64,000 nt of DNA. It comes from Bradyrhizobium sp. NP1. GTDB lineage: Bacteria > Pseudomonadota > Alphaproteobacteria > Rhizobiales > Xanthobacteraceae. Under the pieces are notes generated by a model. It did no database searches, was not told where the DNA came from, and saw nothing but the letters and a program-made list of their open reading frames with translations. Position numbers and translations under genes: made by a program. The DNA is taken from the NCBI RefSeq assembly GCF_030378205.1, contig NZ_CP127385.1, positions 992,001 to 1,056,000 of the forward strand, read 5' to 3'. Position 1 is the first letter of the stretch, and the number at the start of each line of letters is the position of its first letter. Below, one piece after another: positions 43,057 through 64,000 of the stretch.

Positions 43057-43953
43057 TCATGCAGAGCGTCGCTTTGCGATCAGCTTGCAGAAGGCTCCGA
43101 CCAGAGGCGAGTCGTCCTGGCTGGAGCGCAGAAGCCAGATCGACGTCATGGCGCCGACGGCATCGAGCGGACGGCTGACGACGGATTCATGGTGCAGTTG
43201 GCACATCGCCTCGGGAACGACCGCGATCCCGAGTCCGGCGGCGACCAGTCCCGTGATGGTCGCGTTGCCGTTGGCAAGCTGGCCGATGCGCGGCTCGAAT
43301 CCTGCGGAGCGGCACAGCACGAGAACCTGGTGCGGCAAGGTTCTTCCCATGCGGTCGCCGTAAAAAACAAAGGGTTCCTGCGCCAGTTCGCCGATCAGGA
43401 TCTTGCGGCGTTTCGCCAACGGGTGATCGCTCCTCATGATCACGCGGAACGGTTCCTGCGACAGCTCGGTTGCCCGCAGTTCCGGGGGAAGAACGGGCGC
43501 CGCGGCGCTGCGGATGATGGCGACCTGCTCCCGCCCTTCCAGCAGCCCCTGGGTTTGTTGGTGGCTCTCAATCTCATTGAGGACGAGCTGGACGTCGGGA
43601 AAGCTTCGACGAAACGTCAGGATCGCATCGCCGATCTGGGCAAGGAGCGGCGCTGACGGGAACATGCCGATGCGAAGCTCGCCGAGCTCGCCCCGCTGGG
43701 CGCGCGTCGCAACCGATATCGCGCGATCGGCGCGCTCCAGGGTGGCGCGAGCTTCGGCGAGAAACAGAAGCCCTGCCTGCGTGAGCTCGACGCGCCGATT
43801 GGTGCGGTTGAACAGGCGCACGCGCAGCAGGTCTTCCAGGATCTTGATCTGCTGGCTGAGCGGCGGCTGCGAGATTCCGAGCCGTGCGGCCGCGCGCCCG
43901 AAATGCAGCTCCTCGGCGAGCGTGACGAAGTAGCGGAGGTGGCGGAGCTCCAT
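43057..43953 (-). CDS. LysR-type regulator of the first hyu operon
   Basis: 298-aa LysR transcriptional regulator. N-terminal winged helix: MELRHLRYFVTLAEELHFGR, AAARLGISQPPLSQQIKILE, then a helical linker and the ligand-binding domain (residues ~90-298) with LLEGREQVAIIRS and GLVAAGLGIAVVPEAM. The start at 43953 is the normal family N-terminus. It is divergent from hyuB, with a dyad in between, the usual layout of a LysR protein and its target. Confidence 0.9.
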   Translation of the reverse strand: MELRHLRYFVTLAEELHFGRAAARLGISQPPLSQQIKILEDLLRVRLFNRTNRRVELTQAGLLFLAEARATLERADRAISVATRAQRGELGELRIGMFPSAPLLAQIGDAILTFRRSFPDVQLVLNEIESHQQTQGLLEGREQVAIIRSAAAPVLPPELRATELSQEPFRVIMRSDHPLAKRRKILIGELAQEPFVFYGDRMGRTLPHQVLVLCRSAGFEPRIGQLANGNATITGLVAAGLGIAVVPEAMCQLHHESVVSRPLDAVGAMTSIWLLRSSQDDSPLVGAFCKLIAKRRSA

Positions 43954-43975
43954 TCGCAACTCATATCAAACGAGT

Positions 43976-43991
43976 TCCAATCAATATTGGA
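43976..43991. promoter_or_regulatory. LysR-type operator dyad
   Basis: TCCAAT-CAAT-ATTGGA is a perfect 6-bp dyad (16 bases) in the gap between the LysR gene and hyuB. The AT-rich flanks hold two similar ATATCAA units (ATATCAAACG and GATATCAATC). The dyad and position fit a LysR recognition site. Binding is inferred. Confidence 0.5.
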
Positions 43992-44085
43992 CGATATCAA
44001 TCGGTCATGTCAATTTTTTGCGAAATCACGCTGGGCTGCCTTGCCGAAAGCCCTCGAACGGGTGCGTGGAGAAACGGATCGCGGA

Positions 44086-45741
44086 ATGTCCGATCGCAAG
44101 CCTGAGATTTTTGATCCGATCACGCTTGAGGTCTATTGGAGCCGCCTGATCTCGATTGCGGACGAGGCGGCGACCGGGCTGCTCCGCACGGCGTTCTCCA
44201 CCATCGTGCGCGAATCCAATGATTACGGCACCGTGCTCATGGATCGCAACGGGGACAGTGTATCGGAGAACACCGGCGGCATAGCCTCGTTCTCCTGCAT
44301 CCTGCCGCGCACCACCAAGGCGTTTCTCGCCAAGTTTCCGATCGAGTCCTGGCGGCCGGGCGACGCGGTGGTCACCAACGATCCCTGGCTTGCGACGGGG
44401 CATTTGCCGGATTTCACCGTCGTAACTCCGATCTTTCATCGCGGGAAAATCGTCGGATTCGCCGGCTGCATCGCGCATTCGCCCGATGTCGGCGGGGCGC
44501 TCTGGTCTGCGGATTGTCGCGAGCTGTTCGAGGAAGGAATCCGCATCCTTCCGATCCATCTCATCCGTGCCGGCAAGTGGAACGCGGATCTGGTCGATCT
44601 GATCTCCGCGAACGTCCGCGTTCCGCGTCAGGTCCTGGGTGACCTCGAGGCGCAGGTCGTTTCGAACGAAGTGTCCGTCCGCCGCGTTGTCGAATTTCTC
44701 GAGGATAGCGGCCTTTCGGATCTCCGGGGCTTGTCCGCCGAGCTCCAGGCGCGCACCGATCGCGCGATGCGCCGCGCCATCGCCGCGGTTCCGGACGGCA
44801 CCTACAAGGCCGAGATCGAAGCCGACGGATTCGATGAACTGACGACTCGCATCGCGTGCACCGTGACGGTCAGCGGCGAGACGATGCATATCGACTACGA
44901 AGGCACGTCCGCCCAAATCGATCGCGGCATCAACTGCGTGCTGAACTATACGCATGCCTATTCGGTCTATCCGATCAAGTGCATCCTTGATCCGTTCACG
45001 CCCCGCAACGAAGGCTCCTATCGCGCGATCACGGTGAGCGCGCCGGAGAGATCGATCCTCAATCCGGTGTACCCCGCACCGTGCAGCGCCAGGCAGTTGA
45101 CGGGCCATCTGCTCGCAGGCGCGATCTACCGCGCGCTCGAACCCGTGCTGCACGACAAGATCATCGCCGATTGCGGGGGCGCGCCCACCATGCGCGCCCT
45201 GTTCAGCGGCGTCAGCCACGACGACCAGCGGTTCTCGCAGGTGTTGTTCGCCAGCGGCGGCATGGGCGCGGCGCCGCACAAGGACGGTCTGCCGACCACG
45301 GCGTTTCCGACGAATGTCGGCGCCGGCAGCATCGAGGCCTACGAAAGCGTTGCGCCGCTCGTGGTCTGGAAGAAGCGGCTGCGCACCGACAGCGGCGGTC
45401 CCGGCACATTCCGCGGAGGTCTCGGCCAGGAGGTCGAGATCGAGGTGCGTGCCGGCCGGCCCGTGCGGCTCTCATTGCTGTCCGATCGCCATCGGCACCC
45501 GCCCTACGGCGTTCGCGGCGGCATGCATGGCGCGCCGTCCGTGATCACGCTCGACGACGGCGTCAAGCCGCATCCGAAATCCCGAACGTCGGTCGATCCG
45601 GGCCGTCGGGTCACGCTGCTTTACGCCGGCGGAGGCGGCTACGGGAATCCCAGGCTGCGCAGCCGCGAAGCGGTGAAATCCGATCTTCGCGACGGCTATA
45701 TCTCGCCCGCCGCCGCCAGGCGCGATTACGGACTGGAGTGA
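44086..45741 (+). CDS. hyuB: HyuB-type hydantoinase/oxoprolinase beta subunit (first set)
   Basis: 551-aa HyuB-family subunit, which with HyuA forms ATP-dependent cyclic-amide hydrolases or related carboxylases. Family segments: FDPITLEVYWSRLISIADEA, TNDPWLATGHLPDFTVVTP, AHSPDVGGALWSADCRELFEEG and SGGPGTFRGGLGQEVEI. The predicted metal/active-site part (His and Asp residues in VGGALWS...) is intact. Followed by hyuA after two bases. Order here is hyuB-hyuA, opposite to the second set at the right end of the window. Confidence 0.92.
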   Translation: MSDRKPEIFDPITLEVYWSRLISIADEAATGLLRTAFSTIVRESNDYGTVLMDRNGDSVSENTGGIASFSCILPRTTKAFLAKFPIESWRPGDAVVTNDPWLATGHLPDFTVVTPIFHRGKIVGFAGCIAHSPDVGGALWSADCRELFEEGIRILPIHLIRAGKWNADLVDLISANVRVPRQVLGDLEAQVVSNEVSVRRVVEFLEDSGLSDLRGLSAELQARTDRAMRRAIAAVPDGTYKAEIEADGFDELTTRIACTVTVSGETMHIDYEGTSAQIDRGINCVLNYTHAYSVYPIKCILDPFTPRNEGSYRAITVSAPERSILNPVYPAPCSARQLTGHLLAGAIYRALEPVLHDKIIADCGGAPTMRALFSGVSHDDQRFSQVLFASGGMGAAPHKDGLPTTAFPTNVGAGSIEAYESVAPLVVWKKRLRTDSGGPGTFRGGLGQEVEIEVRAGRPVRLSLLSDRHRHPPYGVRGGMHGAPSVITLDDGVKPHPKSRTSVDPGRRVTLLYAGGGGYGNPRLRSREAVKSDLRDGYISPAAARRDYGLE

Positions 45742-45743
45742 GC

Positions 45744-47843
45744 ATGGCTGCGAAAACGCGCACGGCGCGCATCGGCGTCGACGTCGGCGGCACCTTCACC
45801 GATCTCGTGCTGCACGATCCGGCCAGCGACCTGGTCCATGTCGGAAAGCTGCTCACCACGCCCGATGATCCGAGCGCGGCGATCATTGCGGGAATCTCCC
45901 GCATGCTGCAGGAGACCGGGCTGCGGTCCTCGGATCTGCACAGCGTCGTGCATGGCACGACCCTGATCACCAACACCATCATCGAGCGCACCGGCGGGAC
46001 GATCGGCCTGCTGACGACGGAGGGCTTTCGCGACACGATCGAGATCGGCCGCGAGACCCGCTACGATCTCTACGACCTGTTCCTCGAAATGCCGCCGACC
46101 CTCGTTCCGCGATACCGCCGCCTTGAGATATCGGAGCGGATCGATGCGGACGGCAAGGTCCTGCTGAAGCTGGACGAGGATGCGGTGGCGTCCGCGGCGC
46201 GGCAGCTGGTTGAACGCGAGCGCTGCGAGGCGCTGGCGATCGCCTTCATGCACTCCTATCGCTCGCCCGGGCACGAGCGGCGCGCAGCGGAGATCGTGCG
46301 GCGGCTGTATCCGGCGCTGCCGCTGTCGCTCTCGGCCGACGTCGCTCCGGAAATCCGCGAATATGAGCGGACGAGCACCGCCTGCGCCAACGCCTACGTC
46401 CAGCCGTTGACGCAACGCTACCTCGACAGGCTCGAGGCGGAGCTCGGCAAGCTCGGCTTTCTCGGCCATCTCTACGTGATGCTCTCGGGCGGCGGCATCA
46501 CGACGGTTCGGGAAGCCAAGGAATACCCCATTCGCTTGATCGAGTCGGGTCCAGCCGCAGGCGCGATGGCAGCCTCTTTCCTCGCGCGGCTCGCCGGGCT
46601 CGATCGCGTGGTTTCCTTCGACATGGGCGGCACCACGGCCAAGATGTGCCTGGTCGAGAATGGCGCGCCGGATCACAAGTTCAACTTCGAGGCGGGCCGC
46701 GTGCGGCGCTTTCAGAAGGGGTCCGGCCTGCCGCTCAAGGTGTCGGTGGTCGATATGATCGAGATCGGCGCCGGCGGCGGCAGTCTGGCGCATGTCGACG
46801 CAACGTCGGGGCTGATGAAGGTGGGTCCGCGCAGCGCCGGGGCCAAGCCCGGGCCGGTCTGCTACGGGCGAGGCGGCACGCAGCCGACCGTAACGGATGC
46901 CGATCTTGTGCTCGGCAGGCTCGACCCTTCCTACTTCCTGGGTGGCGAGCTGAAGCTCGATCTGGAGCGCGTCCGTGGGGTCTTCGCCGACAAGCTTGCC
47001 TCGCAGATCAATGTCGAATCGCAGGACGCGGCACTCGGTGTGCAGCGGATCGTCGATGAGACGATGGCGGCCGCCACGCGCATGCATCTGGCGGAAAAGG
47101 GAAGGGATCCCCGCCAGTATACGATCATTGCGTTCGGCGGTGCCGGGCCGGTGCATGCCTGGAACCTCGCCCGGTTGCTGAAGGTCGGAAGGGTCGTCGT
47201 GCCGCTCGGTGCCGGCGTCGCCTCGGCGCTCGGCTTTCTGGTCGCTCCTCCGGCGACCGACATGGTGCGCAGTTACGTAGCGCGGCTGGAGCGCGTCGAC
47301 TGGTCGCACGTCAATGCGATGTTGTCGGAGATGGAGACGATCGGACGCAACCTGCTGACCGAAGCGGGCGCTGATCCGAAGCGGATCACCTACACGCCGA
47401 CGGCAGACATGCGTTATGTCGGCCAGGGTTTTGAAGTCCCCGTGCGGCTCCCGTCGCTGTCGCTGTCCGCCGCGGATCTCCCCGCCATCAGGGAGAACTT
47501 CTTCGCGAGCTATCGAACGCATTTCGGACGCCTGATCGAGGACGCGTCGATCGAAGCGCTCAGCTGGCGTCTGGCCTGCGTTGCGCCCAACACCGACATT
47601 CGCATCAGTGCGAGCCCGTCGCAGAGCGGCGCGAGCAGGAATGCGCGCCGCGGCCAGCGCCCTGTGCTGTTCGAGGGGCACGGCTGGCAGACATGTCCCG
47701 TCTACGACCGGTATGCGCTCGGCGCGGGCACGACTTTTCCAGGGCCGGCATTGATCGAGGAGCGTGAATCGACATGCGTTGTCGGTCCAGGATCGCAGGT
47801 CAGGGTGGATGAGATGAAGAATCTGGTGATCGAGCTCGGTTGA
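45744..47843 (+). CDS. hyuA: HyuA-type hydantoinase/oxoprolinase alpha subunit (first set)
   Basis: 699-aa ATP-binding subunit with actin/hexokinase-like folds. Phosphate-loop motif GVDVGGTFTDLVLHD at residues ~10-24 and second motif FDMGGTTAKM in the middle; HGTTLITNTIIERTGG, LSGGGITTVREA, and AGGGSLAHVD are family signatures. It couples ATP hydrolysis to opening or activation of a cyclic amide or a related substrate. Two bases separate it from hyuB. Different from the second-set HyuA in sequence, so not a recent duplication. Confidence 0.92.
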   Translation: MAAKTRTARIGVDVGGTFTDLVLHDPASDLVHVGKLLTTPDDPSAAIIAGISRMLQETGLRSSDLHSVVHGTTLITNTIIERTGGTIGLLTTEGFRDTIEIGRETRYDLYDLFLEMPPTLVPRYRRLEISERIDADGKVLLKLDEDAVASAARQLVERERCEALAIAFMHSYRSPGHERRAAEIVRRLYPALPLSLSADVAPEIREYERTSTACANAYVQPLTQRYLDRLEAELGKLGFLGHLYVMLSGGGITTVREAKEYPIRLIESGPAAGAMAASFLARLAGLDRVVSFDMGGTTAKMCLVENGAPDHKFNFEAGRVRRFQKGSGLPLKVSVVDMIEIGAGGGSLAHVDATSGLMKVGPRSAGAKPGPVCYGRGGTQPTVTDADLVLGRLDPSYFLGGELKLDLERVRGVFADKLASQINVESQDAALGVQRIVDETMAAATRMHLAEKGRDPRQYTIIAFGGAGPVHAWNLARLLKVGRVVVPLGAGVASALGFLVAPPATDMVRSYVARLERVDWSHVNAMLSEMETIGRNLLTEAGADPKRITYTPTADMRYVGQGFEVPVRLPSLSLSAADLPAIRENFFASYRTHFGRLIEDASIEALSWRLACVAPNTDIRISASPSQSGASRNARRGQRPVLFEGHGWQTCPVYDRYALGAGTTFPGPALIEERESTCVVGPGSQVRVDEMKNLVIELG

Positions 47844-48042
47844 TCCGGCCGCAACGATCGTTGCCGGGACAATCGGGCCGTCGCCTGGCGGAGTTGAGCA
47901 AGGGAGCGGGCAAATTCCAGACGCGGACGCTTCAGGCGTTCGGAAATCGTGCGGCGAAATACGAGGGCAAACGAAGCGCTTCAACGACTTCGCCGACCGC
48001 TGCGGGCAATCCGCCGTCCGGATCGCAACAGGGGAAGCTACT

Positions 48043-49044
48043 ATGTCTGCGCATGTTGGAATTCCTCGCCGCCGTGTGTCCGGCTGGCTCGCCGCGGCAG
48101 CGGTCCTCCCGCTTTTCCCCGCGCATCTCCGGGCCGCGCAAGAAGGCTATCCCAACCGGCTGATCAGGATCATCGTGCCCTGGCCCGCCGGCGCCATTAC
48201 CGACATGACGGCCCGCCTGCTTGCCAATCAGTGGGTGGCGGAATTCGACCAGACCGTCGTCGTCGAAAACAAGCCGGGCGCCTCGGGCACGATCGGCCAC
48301 ACCGCGGTCGCGCACTCTGCGGCCGATGGTTATACGGTCCTGTTCGCAACCAACAGCACTTACGCGGTGGCGCCGAGCATCCTGCCGTCGCTGCCCTATG
48401 ACAACGACAAGGCGTTCGCGCCGGTCGGATTGGTGTTGCGGTCTCCGCAGATGCTTTGCGTCCACCCGAGCGTGCCGGCGAACTCGGTGCCGGAGTTTTT
48501 GGACTATGTCCGCAACCGCAAGACGAACGACGTGAACTTCGCTTCCGCCGGGCCGGGCAGCACGAGCCACATGGCGATGGAGCTGCTGATGTCGATGACC
48601 CACATCCGCATGCAGCACGTTCCGTATCGGGGAGGCGCGCCCTCATTGCAGGCTGTCATCGCGGGCGAGACGAGCGTCGCATTCGTCGATTTGTCCACGG
48701 CCATTTCGGCGGCCGACGGCGGTCTGCTGCGGATGCTGGGCGCCAGCACGACGGAACGAGCCGCGCTGCGGCCAAACGTGCCGGCGATCGCCGAGACCGT
48801 GCCCGGATTCCAGTCGACAACGGACGTCGCCTTGTTCGTGCCGGCCGGGACGCCGGACGCCGTCATTCATCGGCTCAATGCCGCGATGAAGAACGCGTTC
48901 AAGTCTCCGGAGGTGACCAGGCCGCTGCTGCAGGCGGGGCTGATCCTCGTCGCGGGCTCGCCGGAGGAGTTTCCGCAGTATTTCGCCGAGGAATGCGGGA
49001 AATGGCGCAAGCTGATCGAGGCGCAGAACATCAGGTTGCAGTGA
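48043..49044 (+). CDS. Bug-type periplasmic binding protein (orphan)
   Basis: 333-aa tripartite tricarboxylate transporter (TctC/Bug) binding protein. A twin-Arg-like signal peptide (RRRVSGWLAAAAVLPLFPAH) precedes YPNRLIRIIVPWPAGAITDM, VENKPGASGTIGHTAVAHSAADGYT, and VPYRGGAPSLQAVIAGE. Such proteins bind carboxylates, amino acids or small organic acids. No TctA/TctB permease is in the window, so it may serve a transporter elsewhere or act as a sensor. Position behind hyuA suggests it binds the pathway substrate (inference). Confidence 0.9.
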   Translation: MSAHVGIPRRRVSGWLAAAAVLPLFPAHLRAAQEGYPNRLIRIIVPWPAGAITDMTARLLANQWVAEFDQTVVVENKPGASGTIGHTAVAHSAADGYTVLFATNSTYAVAPSILPSLPYDNDKAFAPVGLVLRSPQMLCVHPSVPANSVPEFLDYVRNRKTNDVNFASAGPGSTSHMAMELLMSMTHIRMQHVPYRGGAPSLQAVIAGETSVAFVDLSTAISAADGGLLRMLGASTTERAALRPNVPAIAETVPGFQSTTDVALFVPAGTPDAVIHRLNAAMKNAFKSPEVTRPLLQAGLILVAGSPEEFPQYFAEECGKWRKLIEAQNIRLQ

Positions 49045-50319
<1,275 letters not shown>

Positions 50320-50550: not shown

Positions 50551-50604
50551 AAGACAGCGAGGCTGGCAGCTGACCGATGCGCTGCGCTTCGGGCCAGCCG
50601 GGAG

Positions 50605-51138
50605 ATGGAGATGGAGCAGCAAGGGAGCGCTGAGAGCCGGTGGCAGGATGACCTCTACGATCTCCTGCGGGAGGGTGGCGTCACGCTGTTCTCCTACGTG
50701 CCCGACGCCGGCCACAAGGTCGCGATCGAGCGTGCGTTGGCCGATCCCGGCGCGATCGCGGTTCCGCTGACGACCGAGCAGGAGGGCGTGGCGCTGGCGG
50801 CGGGCGCGCATCTCGGCGGCGCGAGGTCGGTGTTGCTGATGCAGAGCAGCGGCACCGGCAACTGCACCAACATGCTGTCGCTGATCGCGAACGGGCTGTT
50901 TCCGTTTCTCGCCGTCATCACCATGCGCGGCGATTTCGGCGAAGCCAATCCCTGGCAATATGCCATGGGACAGGCCGTCCAGCCCACGCTGGAAGCGATG
51001 GGCGTCATCTGCCTGCGGGCCGAAACTCCTGCCGATGTCGCGCCGGCGACCACTGCCGCGCTGTCCATGGCTTTCACCGCGGAGCGGCCGGTCGCCATTC
51101 TGCTGTCTCAGCGCCTGATTGGCGCCAAGGCGTTCTAG
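50605..51138 (+). CDS. ThDP-dependent 2-oxo acid decarboxylase, alpha subunit
   Basis: 177-aa PYR-domain subunit of a split thiamine diphosphate decarboxylase, of the ComD/sulfopyruvate or phosphonopyruvate decarboxylase type. The catalytic Glu that activates ThDP is in PLTTEQEGVALAAGAHLGG, followed by MQSSGTGNCTNMLSLI. The PP domain is on the next gene. ATG at 50605, or 50611 two codons later. Confidence 0.85.
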   Translation: MEMEQQGSAESRWQDDLYDLLREGGVTLFSYVPDAGHKVAIERALADPGAIAVPLTTEQEGVALAAGAHLGGARSVLLMQSSGTGNCTNMLSLIANGLFPFLAVITMRGDFGEANPWQYAMGQAVQPTLEAMGVICLRAETPADVAPATTAALSMAFTAERPVAILLSQRLIGAKAF

Positions 51139-51147
51139 CTTCAGGGC

Positions 51148-51753
51148 ATGTCGATGACCAGTACAAGGAAGATATCGTCAGGCCTCGATCGGAGCGAAGT
51201 CATTCCGAAGCTGTTCGGCGATCCCAGCGATTTCCTGATCATCGCCGGCCTGGCCGGAGCGGCAAAGGACATCGGCGCGCTCGCCAGGGAAGCGCCGAAT
51301 ACGTTCCTGTTTGGCGGAGCCATGGGCGGGGCCACGATGACGGGGCTCGGCCTTGCACTTGCCCAGCCGGATCGGCGCGTCGTGGTGGTGACCGGTGACG
51401 GCGACCTCCTGATGAGCATCGGGTCGCTCGCGACCATCGGCATCATGAAGCCGAAGAACCTCGCGGTCGTCTGCGTCGACAACGAACTTTATGGCGAAAC
51501 AGGCAGCCAGGCCACGCATACCGGCCAGGGCGTCGATTTGCGGGTCGTCGCGAGCGGATGCGGCATTCCCGTCACGCATGAAGTGACGAACGAGGCCGAC
51601 ATTGCCCAGGCCGCCCGCCTGCTGCGGCAGTCCAACTCTCCAGTCTTCATCCTGCTGAAGGTCAACGGCAATCCGCCCCCACCCTATCGTCGCAACTGGC
51701 ATGCCCATGAGAGCAAGAGCGCTTTCCGCCACGCGCTTCTCGGTAAACGCTGA
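51148..51753 (+). CDS. ThDP-dependent 2-oxo acid decarboxylase, beta subunit
   Basis: 201-aa PP-domain subunit. The ThDP/Mg motif GDGDLLMSIGSLATIG...VDNELYGETG (GDG followed about 29 residues later by N) is intact. Together with the alpha subunit it would decarboxylate a 2-oxo acid to an aldehyde. Nearest named relatives are ComE (sulfopyruvate) and phosphonopyruvate decarboxylase. Nine bases from the alpha gene. The substrate is not decided. Confidence 0.85.
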   Translation: MSMTSTRKISSGLDRSEVIPKLFGDPSDFLIIAGLAGAAKDIGALAREAPNTFLFGGAMGGATMTGLGLALAQPDRRVVVVTGDGDLLMSIGSLATIGIMKPKNLAVVCVDNELYGETGSQATHTGQGVDLRVVASGCGIPVTHEVTNEADIAQAARLLRQSNSPVFILLKVNGNPPPPYRRNWHAHESKSAFRHALLGKR

Positions 51754-51819
51754 CATTCGAAGCGCGCCGCGGGCTCGAAAGCCCGCCCCGCCCTGATGCA
51801 GCCAGAAGGACCCCATTCC

Positions 51820-54398: not shown

Positions 54399-55379
54399 TC
54401 AGTCCGGAATCAGGACGATCTTGCCGAAGAAGTCGCGCGCCTCCATCAGGCTCTCCGCCTCCGCCAGTTTCGACATCGGAAACGTCCTGATCTCGGGCAG
54501 CGCCAGCCTGCCTTCGGCGACGCCGCGCATGCCCTGCTCGACATCCTCCTTCAGGTAACCGTTCGATCCGATGATCCGAAGCTCCCGCTGCCAGATGTAG
54601 CGGATGTCCTCCCTGGGATCGAAGCCTGCGGTCGCCCCGCAGGTCAGCAGCTTGCCGTAGCGCTTCAAGGCGCGAAGCGACGGCACCCAGGTCTCGCCGC
54701 CCGTGAAGTTCACGCAGACGTCGACGCCCTTCTTTCCGCTGATCGCCCAGGCCTGCCGGGAGAAATCCTCCCTGCTGTAGTTGATCGTGTAGTCGGCGCC
54801 GAGCTGCTGCAGACGCGCGCATTTTTCATCCGAGCCGGCGCAGGCGATCACCCGGGCGCCATGCGCCCTGGCCAGCTGGACGGTTGCCGTGCCGACGCCG
54901 CCGCTCGCGCCCAGCACGAGCAGGAGATCGTCCTTCTGCAGGCCGCCATTGGCATGCAGCATCCGGTTCGCGGTGCCGAAATTGGCAGGGACGCACGCGG
55001 CCCGTTCGAACGAGAGGCGACGGTCGAGCGAGATCACGAACTGATGCTGCACCCGGACGAGTTCGGCCATCCCGCCCTGCACCTCCTCGCCGACCATCCC
55101 TTCGTCGGTCATCGGATCGACCAGCACGGCATCCCCGATCTCGAAGCCCTCGACGCCGGCCCCGACCGCCGCGACGGTGCCCGCGATGTCGCCACCCGAA
55201 ATGAAAGGCAGCTTGACCGGCAGGCCGGGTATTCCGCGACGTACGAAAATATCGAAGTGGTTGAGGCCGCACGCCTTGACGCGCACCAGGACGTCGCCCG
55301 GCCGCACCTCTGGATCGGGAAACTCGCGGTACACGATGTTTTCGACGCCACCATGCGCTTCGATCACTGCAGCCTTCAT
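54399..55379 (-). CDS. Zinc-type alcohol dehydrogenase-like quinone oxidoreductase
   Basis: 326-aa MDR-superfamily oxidoreductase: KACGLNHFDIFVRRGIPG, GGDIAGTVAAVGAGVEGFEIGD, and cofactor motif VLGASGGVGTATVQLARAHGA. The catalytic and structural zinc cysteines of true alcohol dehydrogenases are mostly missing, which favours the quinone oxidoreductase/enoyl reductase side. Last gene of the operon ALDH-OYE-ligase-QOR, 49 bases after the ligase. Confidence 0.88.
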   Translation of the reverse strand: MKAAVIEAHGGVENIVYREFPDPEVRPGDVLVRVKACGLNHFDIFVRRGIPGLPVKLPFISGGDIAGTVAAVGAGVEGFEIGDAVLVDPMTDEGMVGEEVQGGMAELVRVQHQFVISLDRRLSFERAACVPANFGTANRMLHANGGLQKDDLLLVLGASGGVGTATVQLARAHGARVIACAGSDEKCARLQQLGADYTINYSREDFSRQAWAISGKKGVDVCVNFTGGETWVPSLRALKRYGKLLTCGATAGFDPREDIRYIWQRELRIIGSNGYLKEDVEQGMRGVAEGRLALPEIRTFPMSKLAEAESLMEARDFFGKIVLIPD

Positions 55380-55428: not shown

Positions 55429-57117
55429 TCAGGCGAGAGAGTCCCTTGCGGGCTGCGGACGGAAGCGGACAGGTGCGGGACGAATGACGCCGTTGGCGGC
55501 GTCCTCCACCAGCCGCCGCTTGAGCACTTTTCCGCTTGCGGTGAGCGGGAAGTGGTCGAGCTGGACGAAGTATTCGGGCATGTCGTATTTCGACAGGCCC
55601 ATCGCATCGAGATGCGCGAGGATTTCGGATGGCGGCATCTCGCGCGGCTCCTTCATGACAAGCGCCAGACATACCTTCTCGCCGAGGCGCGGGTCCGCGA
55701 CCGGAAACGCGGCTGCCTTCAGGACGGACGGGTGGCGCATGGCGAGGTCCTCGATGCGTGCGGGATGGATGTTGTGGCCGCCGCGAATGATCAGGTCCTT
55801 CTTGCGGCCGACGATGCGCAAATTGCCATGCCGGTCCATCTCGCCAAGGTCGCCGGTCATGAACCAGCCGGACCGGTTGAAGGATCGCTCGGTGCCGATC
55901 TGGTCGTCGAAATAGCCGAGCATCAGGCAGCAGCCGCGGCCACCGAGCTCGCCGGTCTCTCCGATCTCCAGCTCGCGATCCGGATTTTCCGGGTCCCACA
56001 CCTTCAATTCGAAGCCGTCGCAGGAGCGCCCGCAGCTGTTGATGATGATTTCGGGCGGATCGTCCGGCCGCGTATATTGAAACGAGCAGTTCTCGGTCAT
56101 GCCGTAGCAGCTCTGCGGCGTTATTCCGAGCGCCAGCAGGGCGCGGACGGTCGCTGCAGGGATCGGCGATCCCGCGAGCTGGAACGAGGAGACATCGCCG
56201 ATCCGCGTCAAGCCGCGCTTGTGCACCTCAGTGAGAAGGTCGATGGCGTGGGTCGGCACGCCGATCAGGTAGGTGGCGCCTGTCTCGATGATGCGATCGA
56301 GCGTTCGCCGGCCGTCGAGCGGCGAGTGGACCACGAGCTCACCGCCGCAAGCCAGCGCCGTGACGAGTGCGACCGTGCCCATGTTGTGGCTCATCGGGCT
56401 CAGCGTGTAGATCACGGTTTTGGCGTCAAAGCCGAAGTCGCTGACGATCGCCCGTCCGTTCGACAGCAGCGTGTTGTCGGAGTGCATCACGCCCTTGGGA
56501 AGGCCCGTCGTGCCCGAGGTGAAGGCGAGATACATCACGCGATCGGGGCTGGACGAAAAGCCTAGGCCGCCGGATTCGCGCACACTAAGCTCGCCGCATC
56601 GCTTCGCCGGATTGCCGCTCAATTCATTCGCCGCCAGCGGTGGCAGCCGATAGGTCTTCTTGAGACTTGGCAGGCCGGACAGCAGGGCAAAAATGTCGTG
56701 GCGGTCGGAATCCGCGCCATGGCCCGGTTGTCCGAAGAAAGCGGCTGCGGAGACGCGCTCGAGCAGGATGCGGATTTCGGCGCAGGTATAGTCGCGATGC
56801 AGCGACGGATTGCAGACATAGCCCATCCGCGAGCAGGCGAGCAGGACCAGCACGGATTCCGCGCGGCTCGGCAGCCAGATCGACACGCGGTCGCCCTGGC
56901 GCAGCCCGGCGGCGTGAAGATCGGCCGCGATCGTGTCGACCCATTGCAGCGCCTCGCGGTAGGTGAGGCGGCTCTCGGTGTCGCGGATCGCGTGGTGCTC
57001 GGGCTGAATCTCGGCCCAGTGCCGCAGCCTCATATAAAGGGTGCTGGGCTGCCAATGGCCTTTCTCGTAGAACGACCTGGCCTGATCGAGATCGAGGAGC
57101 GAGAGGGTCCGCGCCAT
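55429..57117 (-). CDS. AMP-binding acyl-CoA ligase
   Basis: 562-aa acyl- or aryl-CoA synthetase. ATP loop AFTSGTTGLPKGVMHSDN, motif CYGMTENCSFQYTRPDD, hinge GWFMTGDLGEMDRHG, RKKDLIIRGGHNI, and C-terminal LTASGKVLKRR. The family includes cyclohexanecarboxylate- and benzoate-CoA type ligases; exact substrate unknown. AAGCAGGAA precedes the ATG. Third gene of the four-gene operon. Confidence 0.88.
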   Translation of the reverse strand: MARTLSLLDLDQARSFYEKGHWQPSTLYMRLRHWAEIQPEHHAIRDTESRLTYREALQWVDTIAADLHAAGLRQGDRVSIWLPSRAESVLVLLACSRMGYVCNPSLHRDYTCAEIRILLERVSAAAFFGQPGHGADSDRHDIFALLSGLPSLKKTYRLPPLAANELSGNPAKRCGELSVRESGGLGFSSSPDRVMYLAFTSGTTGLPKGVMHSDNTLLSNGRAIVSDFGFDAKTVIYTLSPMSHNMGTVALVTALACGGELVVHSPLDGRRTLDRIIETGATYLIGVPTHAIDLLTEVHKRGLTRIGDVSSFQLAGSPIPAATVRALLALGITPQSCYGMTENCSFQYTRPDDPPEIIINSCGRSCDGFELKVWDPENPDRELEIGETGELGGRGCCLMLGYFDDQIGTERSFNRSGWFMTGDLGEMDRHGNLRIVGRKKDLIIRGGHNIHPARIEDLAMRHPSVLKAAAFPVADPRLGEKVCLALVMKEPREMPPSEILAHLDAMGLSKYDMPEYFVQLDHFPLTASGKVLKRRLVEDAANGVIRPAPVRFRPQPARDSLA

Positions 57118-57202: not shown

Positions 57203-58459
57203 TCAGATCTTGTTCAGCGAAGGCCGGCTGCCCTCGCCGCTGTCGAACCAGGTGTACGGCTCGTGGCGGGCCGCGGTGAACGGTATCGTAACGTCCGTGC
57301 CCGCGGGATAGGCCGAAATCGTTCGGTTGCGGCCGTGCAGACGATAGGCGTAATCGGACGGCAGCAATCCGTAGCCGTCCTCGTTCAGGGCGGCTGCCGC
57401 ATGCACCGGCCAGTTGCTGTCGGCCAGTGCTTCGCGGGCGATCGCGATGAGATCGGCATCGCCGGCCTGCAGGATGGAATCGGCGTGATGGGGGTCGACG
57501 ATCAGGCCGACCGCCATGGTCTTGATCTTCGCGGTGCTTCTGATGTGGGAGGCGTAGGCGACGTGGTAGCCGGGCACGCGCGGGATCAGCGGAAACGCGC
57601 TGTCGCCCTGGATGCCGCCGGACGAGCAGTCGATCACGTCGATGCCGATCTGCTTGAGCGCCGTCGCGAGCGCGACGCTGTCGTCGACGTCCCAGATGCC
57701 GCCCTTGCCGTCCACGACCGAGCAGCGAAAGAACACGGGCAGGTCGGCCGGCCATGCCGAACGCACGGCTTCGGCGACCTCGAGCGCGAAACGCATGCGG
57801 CCGGCCCGGTCGCCGCCATAGGCATCGGTACGATGGTTTGTCACCGGCGAAAGGAACTGGTGGATCAGATAGCCATGTGCGCCATGGATTTCGCAGATGT
57901 CGAATCCCGCCTGCAGCGCGCGCCTGGCCGCCTCGGTCCACGCGTTCAACACGGTTGCGATGTCGCTCAGGCTCATCGCGGCAGGCGTGTGGGCGTCGGG
58001 CGAGACCGGAATGGCGCTCGGTGCGATGCCGATCCAGGGCGGACGGTCCGCGGTCGAATTTGCGGCGGTGAGTGGCGCCCAGTTCTGCATGGCGCCGTGG
58101 CTTGAGGCCTTTCGGCCGGAATGGCCGAGCTGAATGGCGGGGATCGATCCGAGCGACCGGATGAAATCGGTGATGCGCCGGTATTGCGCGATATGTCGGT
58201 CATCATAGATGCCGGCGCAATCGTGGGTCTTTCGACCGCGTTCTTCCACGGCGGTTTCGTCGCCGAACACGATCGCAGCGCCCGCCATCGCGAATTTGCC
58301 GAGATGAACCAGGTGCCAGTCGGTCGGGCCTCCGGCGACCGATCGATACTGGCACATCGGCGAGATCACGATCCGGTTTCTGGCCGTCAGCCCGCGCAAC
58401 TGGATCGGGCTGAACAGCAGGGATTTTGCCGCTGGCCTCGGCAGGCTGGTTTCAGACAT
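57203..58459 (-). CDS. Old yellow enzyme-family NADH:flavin oxidoreductase
   Basis: 418-aa FMN TIM-barrel protein close to YqjM/NamA: LFSPIQLRGLTARNRIVISPMCQY, QLGHSGRKAS, DICEIHGAHGYLIHQFLSPVTNHRTDAYGG-type core (residues ~180-210), and DADLIAIAREALAD. It reduces activated C=C bonds of enones or enoates. The HxxH/HxxN substrate pair is in HGAHGYL. Second gene of the operon, 124 bases after ALDH. Confidence 0.9.
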   Translation of the reverse strand: MSETSLPRPAAKSLLFSPIQLRGLTARNRIVISPMCQYRSVAGGPTDWHLVHLGKFAMAGAAIVFGDETAVEERGRKTHDCAGIYDDRHIAQYRRITDFIRSLGSIPAIQLGHSGRKASSHGAMQNWAPLTAANSTADRPPWIGIAPSAIPVSPDAHTPAAMSLSDIATVLNAWTEAARRALQAGFDICEIHGAHGYLIHQFLSPVTNHRTDAYGGDRAGRMRFALEVAEAVRSAWPADLPVFFRCSVVDGKGGIWDVDDSVALATALKQIGIDVIDCSSGGIQGDSAFPLIPRVPGYHVAYASHIRSTAKIKTMAVGLIVDPHHADSILQAGDADLIAIAREALADSNWPVHAAAALNEDGYGLLPSDYAYRLHGRNRTISAYPAGTDVTIPFTAARHEPYTWFDSGEGSRPSLNKI

Positions 58460-58583: not shown

Positions 58584-60026
58584 TCAGGCGGACATCTTGT
58601 GACTGACAAGCTTGGTGATCGTGTAGTGGCCAAGGCCCTCGACGCCGCCCTCACGGCCGTAACCGCTGTCCTTGACGCCGCCGAACGGCGTCTCGGCATA
58701 CGAGGCCGTGAAATGGTTGATGGCGAGATTGCCGCACTCGATCGTCTGGGCGATCATCTCGGCCGTGTCGGTTGAATCGGTGAAGGCGTAGGCGGCGAGG
58801 CCATAAGGGAGCGAGTTGGCCTTCCGCACGGCTTCCCCGACGTCGCGCACCCTCGCCAGCAAGGCCAGCGGACCAAACGGCTCCTCGTTCATGGCCCGCG
58901 CGTCGTCAGGGACATCGCCCAGCACGGTGAGCGGATAGTAGTAGCCGTGATTGCCGAGCCGGCTGCCGCCGGCGAGCACCTTGGCGCCCTTGGCGACGGC
59001 ATCGCTCACCAGCGCATCGATCGTTTCGAGCCGCCGCGCGTTGACGAGAGGGCCCATCGCACAGGATTCATCGAGGCCTTCGCCGACCTTCACTTTCCGC
59101 GCGCCCGCCGCGAACGCCTCGGCGAATTCCGCATAGACCGGTTCCTCGACGAAGAACCGCGTCGGCGCAACGCAGACCTGGCCGGCATTGCGCGACTTGC
59201 CGGTAACCGAGGCCGTGGCGGCCTTCTTGACGTTGGCGTCGGCACAAATGATCACCGGCGCATGCCCGCCCAGCTCCATGATCGCGGGCTTCATGTGGCG
59301 TCCGGCAAGCTCGGCCAGCCGCTTGCCGACGGCCACCGACCCCGTGAACGTCACCAGGCGCACGGTCGGGTGTGGGATCAGGTAGTCCGAGATTTCCGCC
59401 GGCCGGCCGTAGACGAGGTTGATGACGCCCTCGGGGAGGCCGGCGTCGGCGAAAGCCTGCACAAGCATCATGGCGCCGGCGGGCGTCTCCTCCGAGGCCT
59501 TGATGATGATCGAGCAGCCGGCGGCGAGCGCGCCGCCGATCTTGCGGGCCGGCGAGCTGAACGGAAAATTCCAGGGCGAGAACGCCGCAACCACGCCGAT
59601 CGGCTCGCGCGTCACCAGGAAGCGCATCCCGGGTTCGGTGGGAATCACGCGCCCATAGGTGCGGCGTCCCTCGCTCGCGTCCCATTCGAGAATATCGCAG
59701 CCGCGCTCGACCTCGAGCCGCGACTGCAGGATCGGCTTGCCTTGTTCAAGCGTCATGGCATGCGCAATCGCATCGATGTTCTGGCGCGCGAGCAGGCTCG
59801 CCTTCTCGATGATCTGCTCCCGCTTCGCGGGCGACATGCGCCGCCAGGTGCGAAACCCCTTTTCCGCGGCGGCAAGGGCGTCGTCGAGATCGCGGCGGGT
59901 GGCCTGTGGCAGCACCCCCAGCACCGCCTCGTTCGACGGATTGACGATCGGCATGTCGCCGTCGCGTTCGCGCCACTGGCCGTCGATGAACAGTTTGATT
60001 TTTGGATAGTTGGGCATGCGCGCCAT
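58584..60026 (-). CDS. Aldehyde dehydrogenase, succinate-semialdehyde type
   Basis: 480-aa NAD(P)-dependent aldehyde dehydrogenase. Catalytic Cys in NAGQVCVAPTRF, catalytic Glu in MELGGHAPVI, cofactor loop FTGSVAVGKRL, Asn in FSPWNFPFS. The overall pattern is that of GabD-type succinate-semialdehyde dehydrogenases (SSADH). First gene of the ALDH-OYE-ligase-QOR operon, with a GntR operator 54 bases upstream. It could oxidise the aldehyde made by the decarboxylase (inference). Confidence 0.92.
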   Translation of the reverse strand: MARMPNYPKIKLFIDGQWRERDGDMPIVNPSNEAVLGVLPQATRRDLDDALAAAEKGFRTWRRMSPAKREQIIEKASLLARQNIDAIAHAMTLEQGKPILQSRLEVERGCDILEWDASEGRRTYGRVIPTEPGMRFLVTREPIGVVAAFSPWNFPFSSPARKIGGALAAGCSIIIKASEETPAGAMMLVQAFADAGLPEGVINLVYGRPAEISDYLIPHPTVRLVTFTGSVAVGKRLAELAGRHMKPAIMELGGHAPVIICADANVKKAATASVTGKSRNAGQVCVAPTRFFVEEPVYAEFAEAFAAGARKVKVGEGLDESCAMGPLVNARRLETIDALVSDAVAKGAKVLAGGSRLGNHGYYYPLTVLGDVPDDARAMNEEPFGPLALLARVRDVGEAVRKANSLPYGLAAYAFTDSTDTAEMIAQTIECGNLAINHFTASYAETPFGGVKDSGYGREGGVEGLGHYTITKLVSHKMSA

Positions 60027-60169: not shown

Positions 60170-61006
60170 CTAGGCGGTCGCCCGCGACTTCGGCTTGGCG
60201 GCAATTCTGCCGCGCTCGACCGCGGTCTGCTCGGCGTCCGCGCGATAGGCCTCCTGGGCCGCCTCCGCCGCCTTGCGAATATGCAGCTCGCTCGCGGCCT
60301 GCGCCGCCTTCTCGTCGCGGCGTCTGATCGCGGCGACCAGCCTCCGCTTTTCAATGACGCTGACGGCGGCGCGTTTCGGCTGGCTCAGCGAGATCGACCG
60401 CAGCCGCATCAGGCGATGGTGCTGGGAGGCGAGGAATTCTGCGAGCAGCTCGTTGCCGGTCGCGTTCAGCATCACCTCGTAGAAGCGGCGGACGCAATCC
60501 ACCTGCTTGCGGAGGTTGTGCTGCGCCTGCGCCCGAGCCATCTCGTCGACGATGGCTTCGAGCTCTTCGATCTGCCTGGCGGTGGCGCGGCGCGCGCAAA
60601 GCCGCGCAGCAAGGCCTTCCAGCGCTTCGCGTATTTCATAGGTCTGCCGTGCCTGCTCGAAGGTGAGGGCGGCAACCGTCGGCCCCTTGTAGGGCGGGTT
60701 GACGACCCAGCCTTCGGCTTCGAGCTGCCGCAGGATCTCACGAACGACAGTGCGGCTCACGCCGAGCAGGTCGCAGAGCTGGCGTTCGATCAGCCGGGTG
60801 TGGGGCGGAAACTCGCCCTCGATGATCGCGGTGCGCAGCTTCTCCAGGGCCAGCACGCGAAGCGTCGGCGTCGTTCGCTGCACCGACAGCGAGCTGCGCA
60901 GCCGCTCGTGATCGGTCGGATCGAGTCTGATCGGCTCCGCGTCGATCGCGGCGCGGCTGCCTAAAGCGATCCTGCCCTTGTCGTGGCTCTTCGTTCGCGA
61001 AGTCAT
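60170..61006 (-). CDS. GntR-family regulator, FadR/FCD type (second)
   Basis: 278-aa GntR regulator with a ~45-residue basic N-terminal extension before the winged helix (RTTPTLRVLALEKLRTAIIEGEFPPH, here residues ~44-69; LCDLLGVSRTVVREILRQLEAEG). FCD domain follows, then a helical, basic tail. AGGATA precedes the ATG at 61006. Divergent from hyuA, with the perfect palindrome between them and a second copy before ALDH, so it is the likely regulator of both. Confidence 0.9.
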   Translation of the reverse strand: MTSRTKSHDKGRIALGSRAAIDAEPIRLDPTDHERLRSSLSVQRTTPTLRVLALEKLRTAIIEGEFPPHTRLIERQLCDLLGVSRTVVREILRQLEAEGWVVNPPYKGPTVAALTFEQARQTYEIREALEGLAARLCARRATARQIEELEAIVDEMARAQAQHNLRKQVDCVRRFYEVMLNATGNELLAEFLASQHHRLMRLRSISLSQPKRAAVSVIEKRRLVAAIRRRDEKAAQAASELHIRKAAEAAQEAYRADAEQTAVERGRIAAKPKSRATA

Positions 61007-61127: not shown

Positions 61128-61198
61128 AATCGGGAAAAACGCTCTCGTCGATAATTAATTGCTCCGCAAAGGGCAATCGGGTGGGGAAAGAACAAGAA

Positions 61199-63274
61199 AT
61201 GCAGCTGGCGTTCGATATCGGTGGCACCTTCACCGACTTTGCGTTGCGAGACACCGACAGCGGCCTGGTGAGGATATGGAAGGTCCCGACCACGCCGCGG
61301 GCTCCCGCCAAGGCGGTGACCGATGATCTCGAGGTCCGGCGCGGCGACGGAGGATTCGACGGCCGCGTCATCGCCGACGTCTTTCATGCCACCACCATCG
61401 CCACCAATGCGATCCTCGAGCGCAAGGGCAGCCGGGTGGCGCTCATCACGACGGAGGGATTCCGCGACGTCCTGCTGCTCGGGCGGCAGAAGCGCTACGA
61501 CACCAATAATCTGCATCTCGACAAGCCGGTGCCGCTGGCGCCGCGTTCGGACATTTTCGAGATCAGGGAGCGGCTGGCGCCGGATGGCTCGGTCGTCGAG
61601 CCGCTGGCCGAGGCCGATGTCGCGGCGCTGGCAAGCCGGATTGCGGCCGCCAGGTTCGATGCGGTCGCGGTGGTGCTGCTGCACGCCTACGCCAATCCGA
61701 AACACGAGCAGCGGGTCGGCGAAATCCTTCGCAAGCACCTGCCGGGAATGGTCATCTCGCTGTCCTCGGTGGTTTCACCGAAGTTTCGCGAATATGAGCG
61801 AACCAGCACGACGGTCGCCAACGCCTATGTGGCGCCGCTCGTCGACAGCTACCTCACCTCGCTCGAGGGTTCGTTGCGGAAGCTGGAAGTATCGGCAGGC
61901 CTTTCGGTGATGCAGTCCAATGGCGGGCTCGTCTCGGCGGAGCTGGCGCGTTCCTTCCCCGTGCGCATCGTGGAATCAGGGCCCGCCGCCGGCGTGCTGA
62001 TGTGCGCGGAGGTCGGCAAGGAAGAGGGCTTCGATCACGTCCTAACCTTCGACATGGGCGGTACGACAGCCAAGCTCGGTGCGATCGACGGCGGCGTGCC
62101 GGCGATCACGCCGACCTTCGAGGTCGATGCGGTCAACTACAAGAAGGGCAGCGGGCTGCCGCTCAACATCACCGCGATCGAGCTGCTGGAGATCGGCGCC
62201 GGCGGAGGCAGCATCGCGCGGACCAAGATGGGGCTGATCACGGTCGGCCCCGACAGCGCCGGCGCCGAGCCTGGCCCGATCTGTTACGGCCGAGGCGGCA
62301 CCAGCCCGACGATCACCGATGCCAATCTGGTGCTCGGCTATCTCAATCCGGATTTCTTCAACGGCGGCGCGATGCAGCTCGATCCGCGCGGGGGTGCGCG
62401 CGCGATTGCCGCCGATGTCGGCGAGCCGCTGGGCCTGACGCTCGAGGAGGCCGCCTGGGGCATCCACTCCGTCGCCAACGCCAACATGGAGCGCGCGATG
62501 CGGATCGTGTCGATCGAGCGTGGTCGCGATCCCCGCCGCTACGCGCTCGTGGCGTTCGGAGGAGCGGGGCCGCTGCATGCCTGCCGGCTGGCGCGCGCGC
62601 TGGAGGTGCCGCGGGTCATCGTGCCGCGCGGCGCCGGCGTCGGATCCGCGCTCGGCCTCCTGGTGGCCGAGCAGAAGATGGACATGGGGCTGACCCGCGT
62701 CGTGAAGCTGGACGGCCAGGCCGGCCGCGAGATTTCGGACATCTTCCGCGAGCTCGAACAGCGCGTGAGCGTCCAGGTCGAGCGCATGCGCCACGGCGGG
62801 ACGATCCGGATCATGCGAAGCGCATCGATCCACCACGTCGGCCAGGGATACGAGATCCGCGTCGATCTTCCGGCGGGCGAGATCGGTCCCGACTATGAGC
62901 GCGCGGTGCGGGACGCGTTCTACGCGGCCTACAAGCGGGAATATGGCTACACCGACAATGAGGCGGCGATCGAGGTCACGGACTGGTATGTGCTCGCGAG
63001 CGTGGTGCGGGACGGCAAGGCTCCGGCGCTGCAGCTCGAAGGCACGACGGCGACCACCGATCCGGTGGTCGGCGAGCGCAAGGCGTACTTCCCCGAGCTT
63101 GGCGGCCTCGTTTCCTGCAAGGTGATCAATCGCTACGCGCTGCAGGCCCATCACAAGTTCGAAGGTCCGGCGCTGGTCGAGGAAAAGGAGTCGACCACGG
63201 TGGTGCTGCCGGGCGACGTCGTTTCGGTGACGAGCTCGGGCAACCTCATGATCGTGATCGGAGGCGCCAAGTGA
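61199..63274 (+). CDS. hyuA: HyuA-type hydantoinase/oxoprolinase alpha subunit (second set)
   Basis: 691-aa ATP-binding subunit. FDIGGTFTDFALRD near the N-terminus, FHATTIATNAILERKGSRVA, FDMGGTTAKLGAIDGG, LLEIGAGGGSIARTKMG and AFGGAGPLHACRLARAL. ATG 61199 starts exactly at the conserved region; a GTG at 61181 would add six residues. Its stop overlaps the next gene. Sequence differs clearly from the first-set HyuA, so the two likely act on different substrates. Confidence 0.92.
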   Translation: MQLAFDIGGTFTDFALRDTDSGLVRIWKVPTTPRAPAKAVTDDLEVRRGDGGFDGRVIADVFHATTIATNAILERKGSRVALITTEGFRDVLLLGRQKRYDTNNLHLDKPVPLAPRSDIFEIRERLAPDGSVVEPLAEADVAALASRIAAARFDAVAVVLLHAYANPKHEQRVGEILRKHLPGMVISLSSVVSPKFREYERTSTTVANAYVAPLVDSYLTSLEGSLRKLEVSAGLSVMQSNGGLVSAELARSFPVRIVESGPAAGVLMCAEVGKEEGFDHVLTFDMGGTTAKLGAIDGGVPAITPTFEVDAVNYKKGSGLPLNITAIELLEIGAGGGSIARTKMGLITVGPDSAGAEPGPICYGRGGTSPTITDANLVLGYLNPDFFNGGAMQLDPRGGARAIAADVGEPLGLTLEEAAWGIHSVANANMERAMRIVSIERGRDPRRYALVAFGGAGPLHACRLARALEVPRVIVPRGAGVGSALGLLVAEQKMDMGLTRVVKLDGQAGREISDIFRELEQRVSVQVERMRHGGTIRIMRSASIHHVGQGYEIRVDLPAGEIGPDYERAVRDAFYAAYKREYGYTDNEAAIEVTDWYVLASVVRDGKAPALQLEGTTATTDPVVGERKAYFPELGGLVSCKVINRYALQAHHKFEGPALVEEKESTTVVLPGDVVSVTSSGNLMIVIGGAK

Positions 63275-63294
63275 ACCGCCAAGTGAACCGCCAA
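63271..63294 (+). repeat. 12-bp tandem duplication at the hyuA-hyuB junction
   Basis: GTGAACCGCCAA occurs twice in a row, at 63271-63282 and 63283-63294, preceded by CGCCAA. The first copy holds the overlapping GTGA of hyuA stop and hyuB start. The duplication keeps the hyuB frame, adding four residues. Confidence 0.7.
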
Positions 63295-64000
63295 GCAATT
63301 GATCAGGCAGATCGGCCGATGAACCACAGCGCCAGCAACACCTCGCGCATCGATCCGGTGACCCTCACGGTGGTCTGGAACAGCCTCGTCTCCATTGCCG
63401 ACGAGATGGGCGGCGCGCTGCGCCGCACCGCCTTCTCCGAGGCGGTGCGCGAGGGCGAGGATTTCTCGACCGGACTGTTCGATGGAAAAGGGCGTCTGAT
63501 CGCCCAGGGCAATTTCACGCCCGGCCACCTCGGCGCGATGCCCTATGCGGTCGAGAACGTGCTCAAATACATTCCCCCCGAGACCCTGAGCCCGGGGGAC
63601 ACGCTCTGCACCAACGACTCCTTCCTGGGCGGCTCGCACTTTCCCGATTTCTACCTGGTCACGCCGGTCTTTCTTGACGACTCGATCATCGGCTACGTCG
63701 TCAACACGGCGCATCATGTCGATGTCGGCGGCGCGCATCCGGGCTCCGAGGCGGTCCAGGGCGTCAAGGAGTCCTTTGCGGAAGGCATTCGCGTGCTGCC
63801 GGTCAAGATCATCCGCAAGGGAGAATTCGACACCGATATCCTGCGCATCATCCTCGGCAATGTGCGGTTGCCGGAAAAGGTGCGTGGCGACCTGTTCGCC
63901 CAGCGCAATGCCAATCACGTCGGGGCCGAGCGGCTTCGCAAGCTGATATCCACCCAGGGGCGCGGCCAGTTCGATGCGATCGTCGACGAGATCCTGAACC
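63271..64000 (+). CDS. hyuB: HyuB-type beta subunit (second set; 3' end outside window)
   Basis: The first 243 residues of a HyuB subunit are visible. Family segments: RIDPVTLTVVWNSLVSIADEM, TNDSFLGGSHFPDFYLVTP, AHHVDVGGAHPGSEAVQG, KESFAEGIRVLPVKI. GTG 63271 is chosen because GGAGG lies about six bases upstream and it overlaps the hyuA stop; ATG 63319 is the alternative, closer to the conserved region. The frame is open to the window edge. Confidence 0.88.
   Translation, partial: MNRQVNRQAIDQADRPMNHSASNTSRIDPVTLTVVWNSLVSIADEMGGALRRTAFSEAVREGEDFSTGLFDGKGRLIAQGNFTPGHLGAMPYAVENVLKYIPPETLSPGDTLCTNDSFLGGSHFPDFYLVTPVFLDDSIIGYVVNTAHHVDVGGAHPGSEAVQGVKESFAEGIRVLPVKIIRKGEFDTDILRIILGNVRLPEKVRGDLFAQRNANHVGAERLRKLISTQGRGQFDAIVDEILN

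Follow-up and report, generated by a model that had tools for sequence, protein, structure and literature searches.

Two adjacent hyuAB gene modules in Bradyrhizobium sp. NP1, probably of separate origin, with predicted roles in the breakdown of cyclic amides

Introduction

HyuAB enzymes belong to the same superfamily as the acetone and acetophenone carboxylases, and PxpA is part of an ATP-driven 5-oxoprolinase that is unrelated to them. We have analysed an island with two hyuAB gene sets, one of them next to a split thiamine diphosphate (ThDP) enzyme, in a stretch of 64,000 nucleotides from Bradyrhizobium sp. NP1 (the window; G000:C1:992001-1056000, in a genome of 7.7 Mb on one contig). Among described systems, the caprolactam cluster of Pseudomonas jessenii GO3 comprises a HyuAB-type caprolactamase, an omega-aminotransferase and an aldehyde dehydrogenase (ALDH) resembling succinate semialdehyde dehydrogenase (SSADH), according to the account in PMC6061476, and lactam hydrolysis is reported for the related OplAB in PMC11033972. 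Split ThDP enzymes are described with sulfopyruvate and phosphonopyruvate as substrates in PMC12141560, and one that acts on a quinoxaline carboxylate appears in PMC12746152.

On balance we favor an island made up of two separately evolved catabolic modules lying side by side, and we consider this reading, with the reactions proposed below, modestly probable. The gene content, the motifs and the conserved neighborhood of each core are established.

Results

Every gene that the first-pass annotation had listed is present as an open frame of the family it named (open-frame list and profile searches). That list is correct, but the genes look like two modules rather than the one pathway it had drawn. 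Module 1 spans 43057-54352, with gaps of 2 to 340 bp between its genes, and module 2 extends from 54399 to 7.1 kb beyond the window edge (coordinates are window positions; a position in locus L010 plus 58000 gives the window position).

43057..43959, minus strand: LysR-type regulator (PF00126/PF03466), divergent from hyuB1 across a 126 bp gap
44086..45741, plus strand: hyuB1, putative metal-site subunit of an ATP-dependent cyclic amidase (PF02538, 493 bits; CapB metal residues aligned, motifs present)
45744..47843, plus strand: hyuA1, putative ATPase subunit, 2 bp after hyuB1 (PF01968/PF05378/PF19278; DxGGT twice, GxxPGP)
48043..49044, plus strand: Bug (TctC) periplasmic binding protein (PF03401, 205 bits)
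49117..50319, plus strand: AT1, class I aminotransferase of the aspartate aminotransferase (AspAT) type (PRK06107, 558 bits, cut-off 617; best PDB match 6f77, 637 bits)
50605..51138, plus strand: split ThDP enzyme, alpha subunit (sulfopyruvate decarboxylase alpha model, 94 bits, cut-off 148)
51148..51753, plus strand: split ThDP enzyme, beta subunit, 9 bp after alpha (PF02775; GDGD...N motif; sulfopyruvate decarboxylase beta model, 122 bits, cut-off 221.5)
51796..53325, plus strand: TcuA-like FAD protein (NF006130, 587 bits, cut-off 369)
53666..54352, plus strand: GntR/FCD regulator 1 (PF00392, PF07729)
54399..55379, minus strand: QOR, a quinone-oxidoreductase-like zinc-type dehydrogenase (PF08240, PF00107)
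55429..57117, minus strand: member of the AMP-forming acyl-CoA ligase family (PF00501)
57203..58459, minus strand: member of the old yellow enzyme (OYE) family (PF00724)
58584..60026, minus strand: ALDH, nearest to SSADH models (PF00171; TIGR01780, 419 bits, cut-off 646)
60170..61006, minus strand: GntR/FCD regulator 2 (PF07729), divergent from hyuA2
61199..63274, plus strand: hyuA2 (NF050156, 486 bits, cut-off 1000; motifs present)
63271..64000, plus strand: hyuB2, cut by the window edge and ending at L010:7013, about 1.0 kb past it
L010:11650-13059, 5.7-7.1 kb past the window edge: class III aminotransferase of module 2 (profile match)

Between hyuB2 and the class III aminotransferase, outside the window, lies a Liv-type ABC transporter (binding protein, permeases and ATPases). 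The genome holds eight HyuA matches above the Pfam cut-off, two of them in the island. Because hyuA1 and hyuA2 are 42% identical, and hyuB1 and hyuB2 34%, the two sets do not represent a recent duplication. In a tree of 36 HyuA sequences, built by a quick method, HyuA1 forms a sister pair with its relative at locus L095 (support 100); HyuA2 belongs to a different supported group.

A survey with HyuA1 (E 1e-200) found relatives in 10 other genomes among 385 of the class, at 11 places, all of which were compared with the island proteins. At L095, in a genome of another family, counterparts of LysR (50% identity), hyuB (75%), hyuA (73%), AspAT (55%), ThDP beta (67%) and ThDP alpha (68%) all lie within 10 kb, and the LysR gene is likewise divergent from hyuB. 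This locus also holds a DAO-fold oxidase, an Asp/Glu racemase-family protein and other oxidoreductases; module 2 was not seen in its genome. The first-pass annotation had supposed that a cyclic amide is opened to an amino acid, which then becomes a 2-oxo acid and an aldehyde, and for the first half of the island this order gains support from the recurrence of hyuB-hyuA, AspAT and the split ThDP pair in L095, as well as from the presence of PxpA near related split ThDP pairs at 5 of 13 plasmid places, described below. Literature searches in open-licence papers returned no description of this gene set.

Other HyuA1 relatives stand among different partners. At locus L096 hyuB and hyuA are joined by a single-chain ThDP enzyme and a relative of branched-chain aminotransferases; an Antarctobacter plasmid (L079) has the same set together with an ALDH. 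The highest scores of these single-chain ThDP enzymes are with models of acetolactate synthase, though under the cut-off, so they are perhaps not decarboxylases. A TcuA-like gene (71%) accompanies hyuA-hyuB at L104, and in Shinella such a gene is found with a ThDP pair and Bug. No ThDP and no AspAT match was found near the HyuA1 relatives of Variovorax and Cupriavidus (61 and 56%).

The corresponding survey with HyuA2 (E 1e-195) found 9 other genomes among the 385, which together with Palleronia (54%) give ten loci. In six of these (L072, L086, L087, L089, L090 and L091) hyuA, hyuB and a class III aminotransferase gene occur together, with identities of 53-66% for the hyu genes and 56-62% for the aminotransferase; gene clustering recovered five of the six, missing L091. 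The best match of the module 2 aminotransferase is the omega-transaminase 6G4B (528 bits), which we take to be the 6-aminohexanoate enzyme of P. jessenii strain GO3. The entry is described as a Pseudomonas omega-transaminase in PMC12226076. Module 2 thus resembles the GO3 cluster in holding relatives of the caprolactamase, the omega-aminotransferase and the ALDH, with a P. jessenii-type omega-aminotransferase by the amidase, an arrangement shared by the same six of ten HyuA2 loci. It differs in that HyuA2 reaches only 486 of the 1000 bits set for the caprolactamase alpha model, in the additional Liv transporter, ligase, OYE and QOR, and in an ALDH that is on the opposite strand and not conserved with the core. 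Plasmid relatives of the OYE and the ligase share no cluster at the three loci examined.

Among genomes with relatives of HyuA1 or HyuA2, modules of the window's type were not seen together, although many assemblies are fragmented, so that this is no proof of their independence. Three genomes (G565, G665 and G696) carry a relative of each HyuA, on different contigs. In L093 (G550:C144) HyuA2-like and HyuA1-like sets lie about 8 kb apart, the latter at 46% identity and outside the HyuA1 group in the tree; a second hyu set is also present in L091. Of the gene order that the first-pass annotation had proposed to look for in other genomes, each core recurs but the two halves were not seen as a pair.

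The ATP motifs of HyuA and the metal residues of HyuB that PMC8453981 gives for CapAB are retained in both pairs (alignment and motif check). A lysine numbered 40 in CapA in that source did not fall at the corresponding position of the alignment and was not used. In all four Hyu subunits the amidase chains 7HK5 (N-methylhydantoinase) and 6YRA (a code given in PMC8453981) outscore the carboxylase chains. Scores stay under the curated caprolactamase cut-off of 1000 (HyuA1 506, HyuA2 486, HyuB1 234; HyuB2 scored only in part), and the carboxylase models are far below theirs, the best being ApcC with 300 against 1500. Each hyu set consists of two genes, with no additional carboxylase subunits.

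The split ThDP pair is similar to ComDE/RhiEF in that two small subunits carry the two ThDP domains, and its best solved matches include RhiEF 9iz3. It differs in scoring below the sulfopyruvate (TIGR03845/TIGR03846) and phosphonopyruvate cut-offs and in its position with HyuAB and AspAT. A tree was built from 42 pairs: the window pair and those of the 41 loci, out of 44, that had both subunits. In it the window pair groups with L095, L011 and L012 (support 99); a 13-row group (support 100) holds the window pair and that of B. guangxiense, which has PxpABC, and the remaining Pxp-linked pairs are in other branches.

We compared the surroundings of related split ThDP pairs at 13 plasmid places; these represent two sets of 20 and 36 records, with near-identical records counted once and some records unread. 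The neighbors include PxpA (5), PxpB (5), PxpC (4), HyuA (1), AspAT (1) and a TcuA-like gene (1), along with ALDH (11), CaiB (8), acyl-CoA dehydrogenase (8), MaoC (6) and CitE (5). The five clusters that combine a split ThDP pair with PxpABC (L080, L082, L084, L085/L106 and L111) have in common with module 1 an ATP-driven cyclic amidase and deaminating enzymes, and also contain ALDH; their ring opener is PxpABC, whereas that of module 1 is HyuAB, and their CoA steps (CaiB in 4/5, acyl-CoA dehydrogenase in 3/5, MaoC by probe in 2/5, CitE in 2/5) have no counterpart in module 1. Neither PxpA nor HyuA was found at L071, L074, L075, L077 and L114-L116, seven plasmid loci that had been selected through other genes, and the neighbors of the closest chromosomal ThDP pairs are mostly unrelated genes. 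On plasmids of Mesorhizobium, Bosea, Deinococcus and Variovorax, split ThDP, ALDH, CaiB, acyl-CoA dehydrogenase, CitE and mostly MaoC recur together in large clusters of catabolic genes (L085, L106, L110, L111 and L113).

An aminotransferase of the AT1 subfamily accompanies a split ThDP pair in three clusters, the window included: a tblastn search with AT1 (E 1e-10) over 46 stretches from 44 ThDP places matched L085 and L095 only. The Mesorhizobium aminotransferase beside PxpA belongs to this subfamily (55% identical to AT1) and scores 591 bits with PRK06107, compared with 558 for AT1 and 545 for the L095 enzyme; AT1 lies below the cut-off of that aspartate transaminase model (NF004769). A carboxylate-binding lysine motif, GGKQ, is present in AT1 and in its exact form absent from the Mesorhizobium enzyme, and was not used. 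A second AspAT, 65% identical to AT1, is encoded elsewhere in the NP1 genome. For the CitE of the Mesorhizobium cluster the top-scoring model is that of RipC, a lyase of the itaconate pathway, although the score is under the cut-off.

The TcuA-like flavoprotein resembles TcuA in exceeding the NF006130 cut-off, but it is below that of TIGR02485 (262 against 373 bits) and is flanked by a ThDP subunit and a GntR regulator. Taken together, AspAT, Bug and the TcuA-like flavoprotein suggest polyanionic acids as substrates. In L074 and L075 the TcuA-like relatives (63-65%) adjoin genes for phosphosulfolactate synthase or lie about 9 kb away from them, and ABC transporters with the annotation NrtA/SsuA/CpmA are also present. 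On a Ruegeria pomeroyi megaplasmid an unannotated TcuA-like homologue (L071:11938-13400; 71-82%, in two tblastn pieces) follows a gene for a ThDP-binding protein, with a class III aminotransferase further upstream.

The island stretch was not found in the sampled congeners. A hyuA2 search (E 1e-150) matched 113 of 195 genomes including its own, the others at no more than 49% identity; a TcuA-like search (E 1e-120) matched 21 of 195 including its own, with 65% for the best other; and a ThDP beta search (E 1e-20) matched 132 of 296 family genomes including its own, the best others being three at 52-53%, one with an internal stop. With 62-68% GC, the island is not distinctive in composition. Next to it, at about 40060-43022 of the window, are heme-uptake-like genes (a small monooxygenase, HutX-like, ExbB, ExbD and TonB; named by eye), and tonB is kept in congeners without the island. 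In eight of these, drawn from the 36 other genomes in which tonB was matched and not including G328, the best of them, the only matches to island genes in the 13-19 kb downstream of tonB were to the Bug, QOR and chemotaxis families, at 30-48%, and a link to heme breakdown was dropped on this ground. An inverted-repeat scan for regulator sites yielded weak candidates only.

Discussion

All substrates and all reactions in the following scheme are predictions. In module 1, HyuB1-HyuA1 would open a cyclic amide with ATP, and the acidic alpha-amino acid that results would be converted to a 2-oxo acid by the additional aminotransferase of the AspAT type. Decarboxylation by the split ThDP enzyme would then leave an aldehyde. 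The incoming acid may be bound by the Bug protein, and a di- or tricarboxylate product may serve as substrate for dehydrogenation by the TcuA-like flavoprotein. In module 2, HyuA2-HyuB2 would open a lactam to an omega-amino acid, with uptake by the Liv-type transporter, and the class III aminotransferase would form a semialdehyde. As in caprolactam breakdown, the SSADH-like ALDH would then oxidize this to an acid, which the ligase would convert to its CoA ester; the OYE and QOR may remove a double bond. From position alone, we infer that the ALDH-OYE-ligase-QOR block belongs with hyuAB2.

Several observations weigh against this scheme. Module 1 was seen intact in only one other genome, L095, which has no TcuA-like, Bug or ALDH match, and at 8 of the 11 HyuA1 places there is no ThDP or TcuA-like match (one of the eight, L105, has a 35% match to AT1). 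ALDH, OYE, ligase and QOR are not near the hyuAB2 relatives at any of nine class-level loci (9/9, 12.6-20 kb each), and the Palleronia locus has an annotated ALDH. Among 30 chromosomal ThDP loci, some with short flanks, PxpA was found at none, HyuA at one (32%) and ALDH at five, and several of the neighbor probes were derived from the very loci counted.

The annotation had run a single pathway through both halves, with the first making an aldehyde and the ALDH, ligase and ene-reductases of the second finishing it. Since the cores recur apart in other genomes we now treat this as a rival, and an unlikely one, although it has points in its favor: the halves are directly adjacent, module 1 lacks an ALDH while 11 of the 13 plasmid split-ThDP places have one, so that the ALDH at 58584 could serve it, and the ligase could stand in for the CaiB CoA-transferase seen at 8 of the 13. 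Against it, module 2 has its own transporter and, outside the window, its own aminotransferase; the regulators differ; and the island ALDH is just 30-33% identical to two ThDP-linked ALDHs.

A role for module 1 in sulfonate use, in which cysteate, through HyuAB1 or uptake, would be converted to sulfopyruvate and then to sulfoacetaldehyde for xsc, seems to us improbable. The best NCBIfam matches of the ThDP subunits are indeed the sulfopyruvate decarboxylase models, the aminotransferase is of the AspAT type, a full xsc (sulfoacetaldehyde acetyltransferase) is present at G000:C1:5003119-5004846 (957 bits, cut-off 676), and TcuA-like relatives occur near phosphosulfolactate synthase genes and NrtA/SsuA/CpmA-type transporters. 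However, both decarboxylase models remain under cut-off, xsc is about 4 Mb distant, the island contains no sulfonate gene, and HyuAB1 would be left unexplained.

Less probable still is decarboxylation of a heterocyclic carboxylate by the ThDP pair, in the manner of LumK/LumL, after HyuAB has opened a neighboring ring. LumK and LumL are ThDP-binding subunits of 20 and 23 kDa that act after ring hydrolysis, as described in PMC12746152, but they are likened to the island pair by description rather than sequence, and the recurrence of one aminotransferase subfamily with the ThDP pair in three clusters points to a 2-oxo acid derived from an amino acid. We regard as least probable of all that one or both HyuAB pairs are ketone carboxylases, an option the annotation had left beside the opening of cyclic amides: the shared superfamily and matches to acetone and acetophenone carboxylase chains speak for it, but it is weakened by the scores, by the retention of every caprolactamase motif and by the subunit count, each pair comprising just A and B where acetophenone carboxylase has two separate alpha-type subunits according to PMC8453981.

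Beyond the two-module reading we tentatively suggest a wider, undescribed type of pathway, because Pxp or HyuA genes occur near split ThDP pairs, an AT1-subfamily aminotransferase lies beside PxpA and the CitE is RipC-like. HyuAB and the unrelated PxpABC would be alternatives for the ATP-dependent opening of a substituted 5-oxoproline-like ring, and the acidic amino acid would be deaminated by AspAT, an oxidase or a dehydrogenase; the split ThDP enzyme would turn the 2-oxo acid into a semialdehyde and ALDH would give a substituted succinate, whose breakdown would be completed by CoA-transferase, acyl-CoA dehydrogenase, the hydratase MaoC and a CitE resembling citramalyl-CoA lyase. One ring compatible with such a route is that of methyl- or methylene-glutamate, which would lead to methylsuccinate or itaconate; a search of open-licence papers on methyleneglutamate and itaconate returned itaconate papers only. 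The window would hold the HyuAB version of the first steps.

To our knowledge, few substrates of ATP-driven cyclic amidases have been described. The partner genes of the island narrow the candidates to two short lists: for one hyu set, AspAT and the split ThDP enzyme argue for a product that is an acidic alpha-amino acid, and for the other, a caprolactam-type aminotransferase argues for an omega-amino acid. Should HyuAB and PxpABC indeed interchange ahead of a split ThDP decarboxylase, a bacterial route for the use of ring amides would be defined.

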